Below, in pieces: positions 14,133-20,053 of a stretch of 64,000 nucleotides of DNA. The translations under genes and the position numbers were made by a program. Position 1 is the first letter of the stretch. The number at the start of each line of letters is the position of its first letter. Below the pieces are notes generated by a model. It did not search any database and had not been told where the DNA came from. It was given only the letters and a program-made list of their open reading frames with translations. Location: contig NZ_RBVY01000003.1 in NCBI RefSeq assembly GCF_004000215.1, positions 478,970 to 542,969 on the forward strand, in the 5' to 3' direction. The DNA is from Nitratireductor alexandrii (GTDB lineage Bacteria > Pseudomonadota > Alphaproteobacteria > Rhizobiales > Rhizobiaceae).

Positions 14133-14837
14133 ATGGCAACGCCGCTTGTCGTTTCCGAGCTCTGCAAGAGCTTCACCATGCATCTGCGCGACGGCATCCG
14201 CCTGCCGGTGGTCGACAATGCGCGCTTTGCGCTCCAGGCCGGCGAATGTGCCGTGCTCGGCGGGCCGTCCGGTGCCGGCAAGAGCTCGATCCTGAAGATG
14301 CTCTACGGCAACTACGCCGTCGATTCCGGCCAGATCATCATCGATCATCACGGCACGCTGACCGACATGGCCGCGGCCAGTCCCCGCGAGGTGCTGGCGA
14401 TCCGCCGCGACACGCTCGGTTATGTCAGCCAGTTCCTGCGCGTCGTGCCGCGCGTGTCGGCGCTCGACATCGTCGCCGAGCCGCTTCTGGCGCGCGGCCG
14501 CGACAGAACCGAAGCCCTGGCGCGCAGCCGCGATCTGTTGAGCCGGCTTAATCTGCCTGAACGATTGTGGGACCTGCCGCCGGCGACCTTTTCCGGCGGC
14601 GAGCAGCAGCGCGTCAATATCGCGCGGGGCTTCATCACCCGCCATCCGATCCTCTTGCTCGACGAGCCGACCGCCTCGCTCGACGCCACCAATCGCGCCG
14701 TGGTGATCGACATGATCGCCGAGAAGAAGGCGGCCGGCGTTGCCCTGCTCGGCATTTTTCACGATCAGGACGTGCGCGAAGCGGTCGCCGACCAGATCAT
14801 CGACGTGACCGATTTCGCTCCCGCAAAGGCCGCCTGA
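14133..14837 (+). CDS. phnL: C-P lyase ABC-type ATPase PhnL
   Basis: Second ABC ATPase of the C-P lyase system; acts with PhnI and PhnK. It has 234 residues, Walker A GGPSGAGKSS, signature FSGGEQQRVNIARGFI, and Walker B ILLLDEPTASLDATNRA. Family-specific text such as GYVSQFLRVVPRVSALDIV marks PhnL. The ATG at 14133 has GGGAG nearby and fits E. coli PhnL. An ATG 60 bases earlier (14073) is in frame and also possible. The stop overlaps the next start. Confidence 0.95.
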   Translation: MATPLVVSELCKSFTMHLRDGIRLPVVDNARFALQAGECAVLGGPSGAGKSSILKMLYGNYAVDSGQIIIDHHGTLTDMAAASPREVLAIRRDTLGYVSQFLRVVPRVSALDIVAEPLLARGRDRTEALARSRDLLSRLNLPERLWDLPPATFSGGEQQRVNIARGFITRHPILLLDEPTASLDATNRAVVIDMIAEKKAAGVALLGIFHDQDVREAVADQIIDVTDFAPAKAA

Positions 14838-15451
14838 TGCCGAAACTTTCCGAAACCCCGTTCATTCATCCGACCGCCGAGGCAAGCGGCTCGACGCTCG
14901 GCCGCTATACCGAAATCGCCGAGCGTACCCGTTTCCAGGATTCCGTCCTGGGCGACTATTCCTACGTGATGCAGGATTGCGGCGTCTGGTGCGCCGAAAT
15001 CGGCAAATTCGCCAATATCGCCGCCGCCGTGCGCATCAACGCCACCAACCACCCGACCTGGCGGCCGACGCTGCACCATTTCACCTATCGCGCGTCCGAC
15101 TATTGGGAGGATGCCGAGCACGAGGAGGCGTTTTTCGACTGGCGCCGCCAGAACAAGGTCACGATCGGTCACGATACCTGGTTCGGCCACGGCTCGACCG
15201 TCCTGCCCGGGGTCAGCATCGGCGACGGCGCCGTCATCGGGGCCGGCGCGGTGGTGTCCAAGGATGTCGCGCCCTACACGATCGTCGGCGGCGTTCCGGC
15301 CAAACCGATCCGCGAGCGTTTCGATCGCGCGACCGCGGCGCGGTTTCAGGAACTGGCCTGGTGGGACTGGGATCACCAGCGCCTGCGCGGTGCGCTCGAC
15401 GATTTCCGCACCCTCGACGCCGCCGCCTTCCTGGAAAAATACCAGGGCTGA
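14837..15451 (+). CDS. Phosphonate-operon hexapeptide acyltransferase
   Basis: Left-handed beta-helix transferase of the type found at the end of many phn operons, distinct from the GNAT enzyme PhnO. The 204 residues contain hexapeptide turns from about residue 9 to 60 and again at 115-155 (VSIGDGAVIGAGAVVSKDVAPYTI), the loop insert TNHPTWRPTLHHFTYR, and the xylose/chloramphenicol acetyltransferase-like GGVPAKPIRERF. It may acetylate an aminophosphonate or a ribose-phosphonate intermediate; the substrate is inferred only from context. Its start overlaps the phnL stop, so it is part of the operon. The frame after it is decayed. Confidence 0.9.
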   Translation: MPKLSETPFIHPTAEASGSTLGRYTEIAERTRFQDSVLGDYSYVMQDCGVWCAEIGKFANIAAAVRINATNHPTWRPTLHHFTYRASDYWEDAEHEEAFFDWRRQNKVTIGHDTWFGHGSTVLPGVSIGDGAVIGAGAVVSKDVAPYTIVGGVPAKPIRERFDRATAARFQELAWWDWDHQRLRGALDDFRTLDAAAFLEKYQG

Positions 15452-15600
15452 TCCGAAGCCTGCCCGGCGAAGCGCTGTGCCACGGTCACGAGCTCGGGCG
15501 GTCGATCGAGGAGCGGGGATTGCGCGAGGGGACCGAAATCGGTTTCTCGTCGATCTACTGCCTGCTCGACAAGCTGCTAAAGTCCGGGCCGGTCGAGCCG
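15451..15600 (+). pseudogene. Fragment of a PadR-family regulator
   Basis: About 50 codons in a frame different from the neighbouring gene read SLPGEALCHGHELGRSIEER followed by GLREGTEIGFSSIYCLLDKL, which matches the N-terminal winged helix of PadR regulators. There is no start codon or ribosome site, and the rest of the protein is missing. It is fused almost directly to the GyrI-like remnant that follows, so an internal deletion probably joined two genes. Confidence 0.65.
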
Positions 15601-15601
15601 C

Positions 15602-15915
15602 TTGCCGGACATGGCGCCGGACTTCGTCGACGAGGGCCTGTTCGACGGCGCGGTCGCCAAGGCGTCGCGAAAATTGGACGCGCCCCTCCAACACCTTAGT
15701 CTGGCGCCCTTGGAAGAGGGGCCTTGCCCGCAGACGATGCATATCGGCTCTCACGATGACGAAGGGCCGGCGCTGGCCTGGTTTGACGGCGAGCTGATGC
15801 CGTCGCGCGGCTACGAATTTTCCGGTCCGCACCACGAGATCTATCTCGGCGATCCGCGAAGGTCGAACCGTCGAAGTTGAAGACGATCCTACGTCAGCCG
15901 GTACGGCGGGCCTGA
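15602..15915 (+). pseudogene. C-terminal remnant of a GyrI-like domain protein
   Basis: The segment MAPDFVDEGLFDGAVAKA, then CPQTMHIGSHDDEGPALA, then GPHHEIYLGDPRR corresponds to the C-terminal half of the GyrI-like small-molecule binding proteins that often accompany PadR/MerR regulators. Near 15861 one base seems lost: reading on in the next frame restores the family ending (VEPSKLKTILRQPVRRA) and its stop at 15913-15915. With the missing N-terminal half this is a decayed gene. Confidence 0.65.
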
Positions 15916-15966
15916 CGCGTTCCCGCCGCCTGCTTTAGGAGAGTTCCCGGAACCGCTGCGGACCGA

Positions 15967-17121
15967 CTATTGCGCCGCGCCGAAATATTGTTCGCGCAAT
16001 GCCTCGACCCGACCGTTTTCATGCATGCCGAGAAGTTGGATGGTTACCGGGCGCGTCAACGCGCTGCCATGGGCGAGCCCGAAACCGTATTTGTCCGGTT
16101 CGAAGATTGGCCCCACCACCTCGAAAGTCTCCTTCGGGTGGCTATGCGTGAAATATTCAAGCACCGGTGCGTCGCCGACGATAGCGGCGACCCGGTCGCC
16201 TCGCAAAGCTTCCGCGGCGGCGTCCAAATCGTCGAACGAACTGTGAGCGATCGCGGTTTCGCGCACGAATTCCTCGGCCACGCTGCCGGTGAAAACACCG
16301 ACGCGCTTGCCGGGAAGATCCTCAAGACTGTTGATCTGGCTGGTGAGTGAAAGCGTGGTCATCACGCTTGTCACCGAGGAGGTGACATAAGCAAGCACCG
16401 CAATGCCGCAGACCAGCCACAGCGCCTGCCACATGCGGCCGATCCAACCGAACAGGTTCTTGCGTGACGGCATTTTCCCCGACGTTGCCACCGACATGAC
16501 CGAGTAGAAGCTTTCGGCCAGACCGTCGCGCCACCGGCGCGGAAAGTTCGCGTCGAAGCGCCGGTCGAAAAACGTCAGAAGGATGGTGGCCGCCACGATG
16601 ACCAGCGCCAACCATCCATAGGCGCGCAGATGGCCCGAATTGTGCAGCCCGGCGACCACGTCGCCGAATCCGGCGCTTCGGTTTTCGGCGACCATGATCC
16701 GCAGTCCGGCGTCGAACCATGGATGGGTGAAGTCTATGCGCTCGGCGCGCTTGCGCGTGATGGTGAGGTTGGTGACCGCCACATCGACCGACCCGTCCGC
16801 GATCGCGTCGACGAGGGTACGAAGGGACGGGTAGGGTTTGTAGCTGAAGTCCAATTCGAGCTGTTCGGCGATCTCTTCCCACAGATCTATCGCCATGCCT
16901 TCGTAACCGTTCTCCGCGGCGATGACGAACGGCGGGCTGGCATAGACCCCGACACTGAGCCGGTCCGCCGGCGTGTTCCCCTCCTGCACGGACGCTGTCG
17001 TGACCGTGCCAAGCAGAAGCAGCATGGCAAGTGTGCCACGCGCGAGAAGTACGCGAAGGATCGTGGTTTTACGTCTCGCCGCGTATCTGCGGCAGGGTTG
17101 TGATGTCGACAGGAGAGCCAT
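15967..17121 (-). CDS. Prokaryotic ionotropic glutamate receptor-like channel
   Basis: The 384-residue protein has the layout of bacterial glutamate-gated channels of the GluR0 type: signal sequence, first half of a periplasmic amino-acid binding domain ([20 protein letters not shown] to about residue 150), membrane helix at about 168-185 ([19 protein letters not shown]), re-entrant pore segment at about 201-218 ([17 protein letters not shown]), second helix at about 228-254, and the second half of the binding domain. The pore lacks the TVGYG potassium filter, having SVATSGK instead. [13 protein letters not shown] occupies the place of the eukaryotic SYTANLAAF gate. The ATG at 17121 was preferred to an upstream TTG. 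It is divergent from phnC, and the PHO boxes lie between the two. The ligand is unknown. Confidence 0.82.
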
Positions 17122-17259
17122 GGCGCGGTGCAATAAACGAACCGTATCGGCATCTCAACTCTTTCGTCATCGAACAGCCAGTCGGCGAAAATTTTCTCGG
17201 ACCGACGATGGCAACAAGCAACGACGGGGAGCCGCCCATCCGTGTGCGGCGTTACAGAA

Positions 17260-17288
17260 CTGTCATCATCCTGACATTCCACTTTCAC
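17260..17288 (+). promoter_or_regulatory. Triple PHO box before phnC
   Basis: Three direct half-sites in exact 11-base register: CTGTCAT (17260-17266), CTGACAT (17271-17277) and CTTTCAC (17282-17288), matching the consensus at 7, 6 and 5 of 7 positions. They lie 57 bases before phnC and about 139 bases before the divergent channel gene, so PhoB could control one or both. Confidence 0.85.
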
Positions 17289-17345
17289 GCGGCTTCGGTA
17301 GCGCAAGTCTCAAGACAGGCGAAAAACCGCCGTGGGAAAGCAAGC

Positions 17346-18167
17346 ATGCTGAAAATCCAGAAGGTCACGCGACGCTTCGGCAACAAGACCGCGGTCGACG
17401 CTGTCGACGTGGAGATCGGCGACGGCCAGATGGTCGGCATCATCGGCCGCTCCGGGGCGGGGAAATCGACCCTGTTGCGCATGATCAACCGGCTGGTCGA
17501 CCCCTCGGAAGGGGCGATCTCGTTCGCCGATCGCGAAGTCTCCGCCTTGCGCGGCGTCGCCTTGCGGGCCTGGCAGCGCGACTGCGCGATGATCTTCCAG
17601 CAGTTCAATCTCGTGCCCAGGCTCGACGTGGTTTCCAACGTGCTGCACGGCGTGCTCAATCGCCGCTCGACGCTGGCGACGGTGTTCAGTCTCTATCCGA
17701 CCGAGGATATTCACACCGCGATCGACATTCTCGACCGGCTCGGCATCGCCGATCACGCGGCCAAGCGCGTCGAGGCGCTCTCCGGCGGCCAGCAGCAGCG
17801 CGTGGCGATCGCGCGGGCCCTGATGCAGGACCCGAAGGTCATCCTCGCCGACGAGCCGATCGCCTCGCTCGATCCGATGAACGCCCAGATCGTCATGGAT
17901 ACGCTGCGCCGGATCCACGACGAGGACGGCCGCATGATCGTGTGCAATCTGCACACGCTCGACACGGCCCGCCGCTATTGCGACCGGGTCATCGGCATGC
18001 GCGACGGAGCGGTGGTTTTCGACGGCGCTCCGGACGAGCTGACGACCTCGGTCGCGCGCCAGATCTACGGCGCGGATGAAAGCTTCTCGGAAGCGTCCAC
18101 CTCGACGTCGATCGAAGCCCTCGAGCCGGAACGTCTGCCGGTCCGCGAGCCGGCTTACGCCGTCTGA
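17346..18167 (+). CDS. phnC: Phosphonate ABC transporter ATPase PhnC
   Basis: ATP-binding subunit of the phosphonate importer. It has 273 residues, Walker [10 protein letters not shown], signature [15 protein letters not shown], Walker [14 protein letters not shown] and the H-loop in CNLHTLDT. The insert [15 protein letters not shown] and the [14 protein letters not shown] region are characteristic of PhnC. The ATG at 17346 follows GGGAAAG and is where homology starts; the open frame extends 315 bases upstream without support. First gene of phnCDE1E2-DUF1045-phnMN, behind the triple PHO box. Confidence 0.95.
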
Positions 18168-18227: not shown

Positions 18228-19133
18228 ATGAAAAAATTGATCGCAGCCCTGCTTACCTCGGCCGCGCTTGCAGCGCCGGCGCTTGCCCAGGACCAGGTCA
18301 CCGAATTCCGCATCGGCATTCTCGGCGGTGAAAATGCCCAGGACCGCATGACGTCGAACGAATGCGTCCGTGCCTATGTCGAGGAACTCCTCGGCGTCGA
18401 GACCAAGCTGTTCACCCCGGCCGACTATGACGGCGTCATTCAGGGCCTGCTCGGCGGCACGATCGATATGGCCTGGCTCGGTGCGTCGGGCTACGCCAAG
18501 ACCTATCTGACCGACCCCGAGGCGGTCGAGCCGGTGCTGGTGAAGACCAATCTCGACGGTTCGTTCTCCTATCACTCCGTGGGTTTTGCGCGGAAGGATT
18601 CCGGCATCACCTCGCTCGCCGACATGAAGGGCAAGAAGTTCGGCTTCGGCGATCCGAACTCGACCTCCGGCTATCTGATCCCGTCGATCGAAATTCCCGA
18701 AGAGATCGGCGCGACGATGGAAGACGGCGTCTATTTCGACGAGGTGGTGTTCACGGGCGGTCATGAGCAGACGATCGTCGCGGTCGTCAACGGCGACGTC
18801 GATGCGGGCGTGACCTGGGCCGACGGCCAGGGCGCCTGGGAAGACGGCTACAATTCGGGCGCTTTGCGCAAGGCTGCCGATTCCGGCATCGTCGACATGA
18901 ACGACATCGTGGAAATCTGGAAGTCGAAGCCGATCCCGGAAGGCCCGATCGTGCTGCGCAAGGCCCTGCCGGCCGACGTCAAGGAGAAGGTGACGGCGTT
19001 CCTGAACGGCCTCCACGCCAAGGACGAACAATGCGCCTACAACATGGCTGCGGGCGAAACCGCCGGTTTCGAGCCCATCGGGCATGACGCCTACGAATCG
19101 ATCATCGCCGTGCGCCGCGCCAAGACAAATTGA
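18228..19133 (+). CDS. phnD: Phosphonate-binding periplasmic protein PhnD
   Basis: Periplasmic substrate-binding protein of the phosphonate importer. It has 301 residues with a Sec signal peptide (MKKLIAALLTSAALAAPALA). The mature part has the PhnD pattern: RIGILGGENAQDRM, DMAWLGASGYAKTYL, FGFGDPNSTSGYLIPS and GGHEQTIVAVVNGDVDAGVT. AAGGAG precedes the start. A strong terminator-like hairpin directly after the gene probably gives a shorter, more abundant phnCD transcript. Confidence 0.96.
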   Translation: MKKLIAALLTSAALAAPALAQDQVTEFRIGILGGENAQDRMTSNECVRAYVEELLGVETKLFTPADYDGVIQGLLGGTIDMAWLGASGYAKTYLTDPEAVEPVLVKTNLDGSFSYHSVGFARKDSGITSLADMKGKKFGFGDPNSTSGYLIPSIEIPEEIGATMEDGVYFDEVVFTGGHEQTIVAVVNGDVDAGVTWADGQGAWEDGYNSGALRKAADSGIVDMNDIVEIWKSKPIPEGPIVLRKALPADVKEKVTAFLNGLHAKDEQCAYNMAAGETAGFEPIGHDAYESIIAVRRAKTN

Positions 19134-19181: not shown

Positions 19182-19195
19182 GAAAGATTGCAGTG

Positions 19196-20053
19196 ATGAC
19201 CGACATCGCGCTCCGCGGCGTTGACGGCCTCAAGGTGGACTATCTGGCGCTGGTGCGCCGCCGCCGCTTGTATTCCGCTCTTCTGCTCGTCTTATTCGTT
19301 GCGCTGATTGCCGGCGGCTTCGATCTCGCCGACAGCCGCAACGCCGGCGGCTTCTGGAGCGGCCTGTCGCAGATTTTCGACTTTCCCGTCGAACTGGTGC
19401 GGGAGGCGATAAACAAGGGCGCCGCGCTGCCGGGCAATCTGTGGCGTTACCTGCCGGCGATGATCGAGACGATCAACATCGCCGCGGTTTCGACCCTGCT
19501 TGGCGCTGTTCTGGCGGTTTTTCTTTCCCTGCTTTCGACACGCGGCCTGGCGCGCTGGCCGCGGCTCATGCCGCTGTTCCGGCGGGTGATGGACACGATG
19601 CGCGCCATTCCCGAAATCGTGATTGCCCTGGTGCTGATCTTCGTTCTGGGCGGCGGCCCGGTGCCGGCCATGATCGCCATCGCCTTCCACACCGCCGGCG
19701 CGCTCGGCAAGCTGTTTTCGGAAGTCAACGAGAACGCCGACCTCAAGCCGATCGAAGGCCTGTCGTCGGTCGGCGCGTCGTGGTTTCAGCGCATGTGGCT
19801 CGGTGTTCTGCCGCAGGTCATGCCCAACTATCTCTCCTATGCGCTGTTGCGGTTCGAGATAAACGTGCGTGCTTCCGCCATTCTCGGCTTCGTCGGCGCC
19901 GGCGGCATCGGCGCCGAGCTGCGCGTGGCGATATCCTGGGGCACCGGCCGCTACGACGCGGCCGCGGCGATCTTTCTGCTCCTGTTTCTGACCATCGTCG
20001 CCATCGACCAGCTCTCGAGCCATGTCCGCAACCGTCTCGTCGGGGGGCACTGA
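19196..20053 (+). CDS. phnE: Phosphonate ABC transporter permease PhnE (first)
   Basis: Inner-membrane permease, 285 residues with about six helices. The N-terminal segment holds RRRRLYSALLLVLFVALIAGG. The permease domain starts at YLPAMIETINIAAVSTLLGA and carries the EAA-type loop (LFSEVNENADLKPIEGLSSVGASWFQRM) that contacts PhnC. The ATG at 19196 was preferred to a GTG three bases earlier. It pairs with the second permease, whose start overlaps this stop, so the importer is probably a heterodimer in the membrane. Confidence 0.93.
   Translation: MTDIALRGVDGLKVDYLALVRRRRLYSALLLVLFVALIAGGFDLADSRNAGGFWSGLSQIFDFPVELVREAINKGAALPGNLWRYLPAMIETINIAAVSTLLGAVLAVFLSLLSTRGLARWPRLMPLFRRVMDTMRAIPEIVIALVLIFVLGGGPVPAMIAIAFHTAGALGKLFSEVNENADLKPIEGLSSVGASWFQRMWLGVLPQVMPNYLSYALLRFEINVRASAILGFVGAGGIGAELRVAISWGTGRYDAAAAIFLLLFLTIVAIDQLSSHVRNRLVGGH

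Follow-up and report, generated by a model that had tools for sequence, protein, structure and literature searches.

We found that a gene of Nitratireductor alexandrii, transcribed divergently from phnC, encodes a protein built like the ionotropic glutamate receptors. This protein is probably a P-loop channel that opens on binding an amino acid and whose filter is not of the potassium type; its place beside phnC looks accidental, with the PHO box between the two genes serving phnC. The channel gene occupies positions 15967..17121 on the minus strand of the window, that is, of the whole 64,000-nucleotide stretch that was analysed, and was recognised from its ORF, Pfam matches, predicted fold and Foldseek comparisons.

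Architecture of the channel protein

From its ATG start codon, the ORF encodes 384 amino acids; an upstream TTG would give 388. The product matches the Pfam families SBP_bac_3 (E-value 9.8e-22) and Lig_chan-Glu_bd (2.1e-12). A third match, to Lig_chan (PF00060), covers residues 172-270 at an E-value of 1e-5, and its 25.8 bits lie below the curated cut-off of 30.8. Each of the 51 aligned relatives matches these three families at E ≤ 0.01, the best Lig_chan match among them having an E-value of 5.2e-11. In plasmid records, such proteins bear the annotation “transporter substrate-binding domain-containing protein”. The dN/dS ratios to the two phnC-adjacent relatives, 0.12 (G001, Nitratireductor arenosus) and 0.23 (G002), show that the gene is under purifying selection.

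We built an AlphaFold2 monomer model on 51 sequences (mean pLDDT 80.2, pTM 0.62). A helix at residues 18-37 precedes the S1 half of the ligand-binding domain (residues 55-145, positions 16687..16959, minus strand, as are all parts of the gene), which contains the conserved R125. The M1 helix follows (residues 164-189, positions 16555..16632), and then a pore helix (residues 197-214) that together with the pore loop spans residues 197-225 (positions 16447..16533). The M2 helix (residues 226-260, positions 16342..16446) contains a conserved, gate-like stretch, [12 protein letters not shown], and leads into the S2 half of the ligand-binding domain (residues 262-380, positions 15982..16338), with the conserved D317. 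Model confidence is lower in the transmembrane part (block means 60-79) than in the ligand lobes. The sequence-only reading had assigned the order S1, M1, pore loop, M2 and S2 to the 384-residue product and had proposed structure prediction as the check on this topology; the model contains M1, pore helix, loop and M2, in agreement with the ORF, Pfam and Foldseek results.

The best Foldseek matches (50 listed) include AMPA receptor chains comprising the ligand-binding and transmembrane domains, with E-values of about 2e-21 and TM-scores by query of 0.44-0.60, as well as the ligand core of Nostoc GluR0. A profile of the 51 relatives aligns across the pore region with plant GLR3.4 (E-value 7.8e-30) and GluN3A (2e-25). 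When the transmembrane part alone was compared with the PDB, the profile gave no solved structure at E ≤ 0.01, and the single sequence reached GLR3.4 at an E-value of 0.1. The likeness to plant GLR and to animal NMDA and AMPA receptors consists of the profile alignment across the pore and the Foldseek matches. Unlike these receptors, the window protein is bacterial, and it has neither an amino-terminal domain nor M4.

The ligand pocket is highly conserved: R125 is kept in 51 of 51 relatives and D317 in 49. R125 and D317 correspond in position to the Arg and Asp to which Ger et al. (2010, PMC2950845), in their account of conserved residues, assign glutamate binding. By comparison with that account, the pocket residues point to an alpha-amino acid as the likely ligand, rather than a phosphonate. 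The Phosphonate-bd family (PF12974) matches the channel protein with 20.4 bits over 39 residues, below its cut-off of 27, and the neighbouring phnD product with 185.4.

In the relevant part of their paper, Ger et al. describe 22 bacterial receptors with S1 and S2, two helices and a pore loop, of which 10 form a Group 2 that lacks the potassium filter. The window protein shares with Group 2 the S1 and S2 lobes around two helices and a pore loop, the absence of a potassium filter, the binding Arg and Asp, and the occurrence of members in proteobacteria. It therefore fits Group 2 as matched by published features rather than by a sequence tree, and this kind of channel is already recognised (PMC2950845, in its account of the groups). 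The passages on Group 2 in that paper give no tested function and name no permeant ion. What sets the window channel apart, when compared with the description of Group 2, is that it adjoins phnC and has an ATSG[K/R] filter. GluR0 of Synechocystis and other Group 1 receptors have the same domain order and ligand-binding fold, as seen in the PDB matches of the ligand-binding domain. By contrast, the window protein lacks the TVGYG sequence of Group 1, and the GYG forms that we found are less than 32% identical to it.

The filter and its relatives

The filter region of the window protein is [13 protein letters not shown], with ATSGK at residues 212-216 and without GYG. A homologue search gave 129 loci with 106 distinct proteins, 96 of which are at least 45% identical to the window protein. 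Of these, 49 have ATSGK as their filter and 15 have ATSGR; the remainder carry close variants. None of the 96 has GYG, and the TxVGYG filter of the GluR0 type does not occur, so the earlier statement that the pore has no GYG holds for the window sequence and its relatives alike. Five GYG forms, which carry potassium filters, were found among homologues below 32% identity. The residue right after the filter glycine is basic in 94 of 96 relatives, and in 94 of 96 the loop between this glycine and the next helix has 2-4 basic and no acidic residues.

These properties of the loop have to be weighed against the reading of the protein as a channel. The protein might be a non-conducting, membrane-anchored amino-acid receptor or binding protein, a reading to which we give little credence. 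It draws on the ATSG[K/R] sequence in place of a potassium filter and on the basic loop without acidic residues, which differ from the potassium filters of the distant relatives. However, few stretches of the protein are as strongly conserved as the pore loop and the M2 gate, as would be expected of a working pore: G215, G225, W226, G228, R229, T247, V253, M254 and T255 are invariant in the 51 relatives. Moreover, a Pfam scan of the window protein found no signalling domain attached.

A bolder suggestion is that the ATSG[K/R] filter and the basic loop give this subfamily an amino-acid-gated pore that has weak selectivity or even lets anions pass. This is very improbable, and we know of no native P-loop channel that passes anions. 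The basic residues of the loop may instead only follow the positive-inside rule.

Most of the relatives belong to Hyphomicrobiales or Rhodobacterales; Synechococcus, Microbulbifer, Luteimonas and a sphingomonad contribute one or a few each. This patchy spread suggests transfer. The channel is present in 45 of 297 genomes of the window's family. A class-wide search found it in 1 of 385 genomes, namely the window's own, in a sample that misses Rhodobacterales and other relatives known from the separate homologue search. No match to the channel was found in the phage records searched.

Several individual homologues are worth recording. The cyanobacterium Synechococcus sp. SynAce01 (L034) has a homologue with 57% identity and the same ATSGK filter, which was likely acquired by transfer. 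The homologue in Paracoccus denitrificans also carries the same filter as the window protein. Plasmids of Salmonella enterica (H15-H18) encode homologues at 42-44% identity, outside the alphaproteobacterial core. Plasmid records of Vibrio, Kovacikia and Photobacterium (L149, L150, L155) contain proteins of 26-27% identity with other non-GYG filters, such as ITRGPFN and ITKGPFN.

The PHO box and the phosphonate genes

On one side, the channel gene adjoins the phosphonate transporter genes, all on the plus strand: phnC, encoding the ATPase (17346..18167; TIGR02315, 324.9 bits against a cut-off of 266.1), phnD, encoding the phosphonate-binding protein (18228..19133; TIGR03431 and PF12974 above cut-off), and phnE, encoding the permease (19193..20053; TIGR01097 above cut-off). 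On the other side, the upstream C-P lyase block ends with a phn-linked hexapeptide acetyltransferase gene (14834..15451, plus strand; TIGR03308 above cut-off). It is followed by the remnant of a PadR/GyrI-type regulator gene (15452..15966, plus strand), in which a GyrI-like piece is recognisable at 15602-15880.

The gap between the channel gene and phnC (17122-17345, 224 bp) contains a triple PHO box, CTGTCAT-N4-CTGACAT-N4-CTTTCAC, at 17260..17288 on the plus strand, 57 bp before the phnC start and 138 bp from the ATG of the channel. Both the divergent arrangement and the box within these 224 bases had been noted beforehand, and we confirmed them together with their coordinates. The box, which was identified by pattern searches and is conserved before phnC elsewhere, departs from the pattern at 2 of 21 positions. 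With as many as 3 mismatches allowed, it is the sole match in the window, with 0 matches in 100 shuffles, and the only such site in the 4.87-Mb genome. A two-repeat pattern gave 3 genomic sites with one mismatch, including that at 17260-17288, and 19 at up to 2 mismatches, with 4 in the backward control. A promoter scan of the gap found no sigma-70-like site.

A genuine box that is unique in the genome and lies in the shared gap is an argument for regarding the channel as a member of the Pho regulon that senses or responds to the supply of phosphate or phosphonate. In addition, the channel and phnC are kept together in three genomes, down to a channel identity of 71% (G002). Nonetheless, we consider membership in the Pho regulon unlikely on several grounds, the first of which is orientation. 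A passage in PMC4415409 describes PhoB as binding such repeats head-to-tail, and therefore the direction of a PHO box matters. The box faces phnC and not the channel, and its orientation is not that of a promoter of the channel's own. A promoter scan of the gap found no sigma-70-like site.

Further, the box recurs before phnC where there is no channel. Among 33 phnC loci from the genus and the family (5 plus 28 best matches), 3 have the channel and 30 do not. The 28 come from a search in which 82 of 151 genomes had phnC at E ≤ 1e-85, weaker matches having been left out. At least 15 of 21 positions of the triple repeat agree in 22 of the 30 channel-less loci, always in plus orientation and 54-91 bp before phnC. 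The other 8 score 12-14, near the shuffles (means 11.2-12.3, maxima 13-16; 20 shuffles per locus). The window's box thus has the same orientation and distance to phnC as in the Pho-regulated phnC promoters of Hyphomicrobiales. What differs is the channel gene across the gap, an arrangement seen in three genomes only.

The reverse comparison gives the opposite picture. We scored 90 channel upstream regions, with duplicates and seven distant homologues included; the 4 that score above 15 are all from the three phnC-adjacent genomes. The remaining 86 score 15 once and otherwise at most 14, like shuffles (at least 15 in 6 of 450 shuffles). When the gaps of the window, G001 and G002 are aligned, the box and the sequence toward phnC prove conserved, whereas the part next to the channel is poorly conserved in G002.

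Channel and phnC are also rarely neighbours. With phnC counted at E ≤ 1e-60 and at least 45% identity, it adjoins the channel in the window, in Nitratireductor arenosus (G001, L004) and in G002 only, among 129 channel loci; in many of these loci the flanks extend for only about 1.5 kb, and a few are close to a contig end, so that a looser proximity of phnC would be missed there. The three phnC-adjacent proteins form one clade (support 100/99 in a tree of 84 proteins), and a conserved phosphonate neighbourhood of the channel was rejected on this count. Both genes are present in all four genus genomes examined, on different contigs in G003. In Nitratireductor luteus, indicus and pacificus, the channel homologue has no phnC in the flanks examined. 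Conservation of the pair in related genomes, which had been suggested as a check, therefore speaks mostly against a link. In Devosia naphthalenivorans (L019), phnCDE lies 1.5-4.3 kb from the channel and runs toward its 3′ end; the two are thus convergent and have no shared promoter.

The position between the acetyltransferase gene and phnC varies among relatives. In G001 and G002, this gap holds the channel and an intact PadR/GyrI regulator gene convergent with it (L144:9036-10178 and L143:9360-10499, respectively). Four relatives with the same phn gene order have no channel there: the gap is about 131 bp in G028 and 478 bp in G035, about 784 bp with a DUF3016 gene in G003 (L145:1520-2029), and about 1060 bp in G034 with a gene divergent from phnC (L142:10655-11497) that is SDR-like as read from the sequence. 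Since unrelated genes occur in the same gap, this spot seems to take up different genes in different lineages.

On these comparisons, the PHO box appears to serve phnC. Shared regulation of the two genes was rejected in view of the phnC loci that lack the channel and the channel loci that lack phnC, and we infer that the channel is independent of PhoB. Some weak, divergent regulatory effect of the box on the channel may exist, because the box lies 138 bp from the channel in all three phnC-adjacent layouts and the pair persists to G002 (71%). The proposal that the channel is tied to phosphate or phosphonate stress is thus unsupported, given the direction of the box, its recurrence before channel-less phnC and its absence before other channel genes. 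The further proposal of a new type of nutrient sensing is not borne out either: the kind of channel is known from the description of Group 2 in PMC2950845, and phosphate sensing is unsupported, the binding domain fitting amino-acid binders. A literature search returned no link between phosphonate or the Pho regulon and an ionotropic glutamate receptor channel in Rhizobiales among the matches listed.

Other neighbours, proposed mechanism and significance

To look for a functional partner, Pfam families were assigned to 91 immediate neighbours at 46 channel loci, a set that leaves out L004, 21 Brucella-group loci, L011, L012, L075 and two others. No phosphonate family is among the 25 of 101 families listed, which are headed by MFS_1 and LprI with 4 each. 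An LprI-family (PF07007) gene occurs in 17 of 107 channel loci, or 14 after two repeated genomes and one repeated species are dropped. The neighbour in L154 served as the seed, so that its match is built in, and where flanks are short, more distant LprI-family genes would go unseen. In 12 of the 14 distinct loci, the LprI-family gene is within 1.2 kb of the channel, and in 2 it is 4-5 kb away. No LprI-family gene was found in 52 control loci (219 kb); only about 3 would be expected there at the overall density of the channel loci, and nearness is therefore the better evidence. A literature search on LprI or DUF1311 with channels returned nothing on either among the matches listed.

The loci with LprI near the channel are L009, L010, L012, L014, L024, L032, L033, L035, L037, L059, L071, L148 and L154, and those with LprI at 4-5 kb are L036 and L049. 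The LprI-family gene is often directly downstream of the channel on the same strand, in several families. In two Agrobacterium tumefaciens plasmids (L151, L154), the channel is followed by a 450-amino-acid protein without a Pfam match and then by an MFS transporter. Between the plasmids, these two proteins show 81% and 74% identity, and a search of 76 further loci gave no copy of either.

We infer the following mode of action from the predicted fold and the conserved residues. A periplasmic amino acid would be clamped between S1 and S2, with its carboxylate on R125 and its amino group on D317. Closure of this clamshell would pull on M1 and M2, the gate in M2 would open, and ions could then cross a pore without a potassium filter. 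As for its location, the channel gene, together with the PadR/GyrI regulator gene, would have reached the gap that separates phnC from the phn acetyltransferase gene in a single Nitratireductor lineage. The position of the channel at the C-P lyase locus would then be incidental, with the PHO box working for phnC.

The divergent neighbour of a PHO box need not be a member of the Pho regulon. For the non-potassium receptors, selectivity and ligand become testable through a set of some 100 close relatives that share a single conserved, odd filter, a set that is also relevant to the loss of the potassium filter in eukaryotic receptors.
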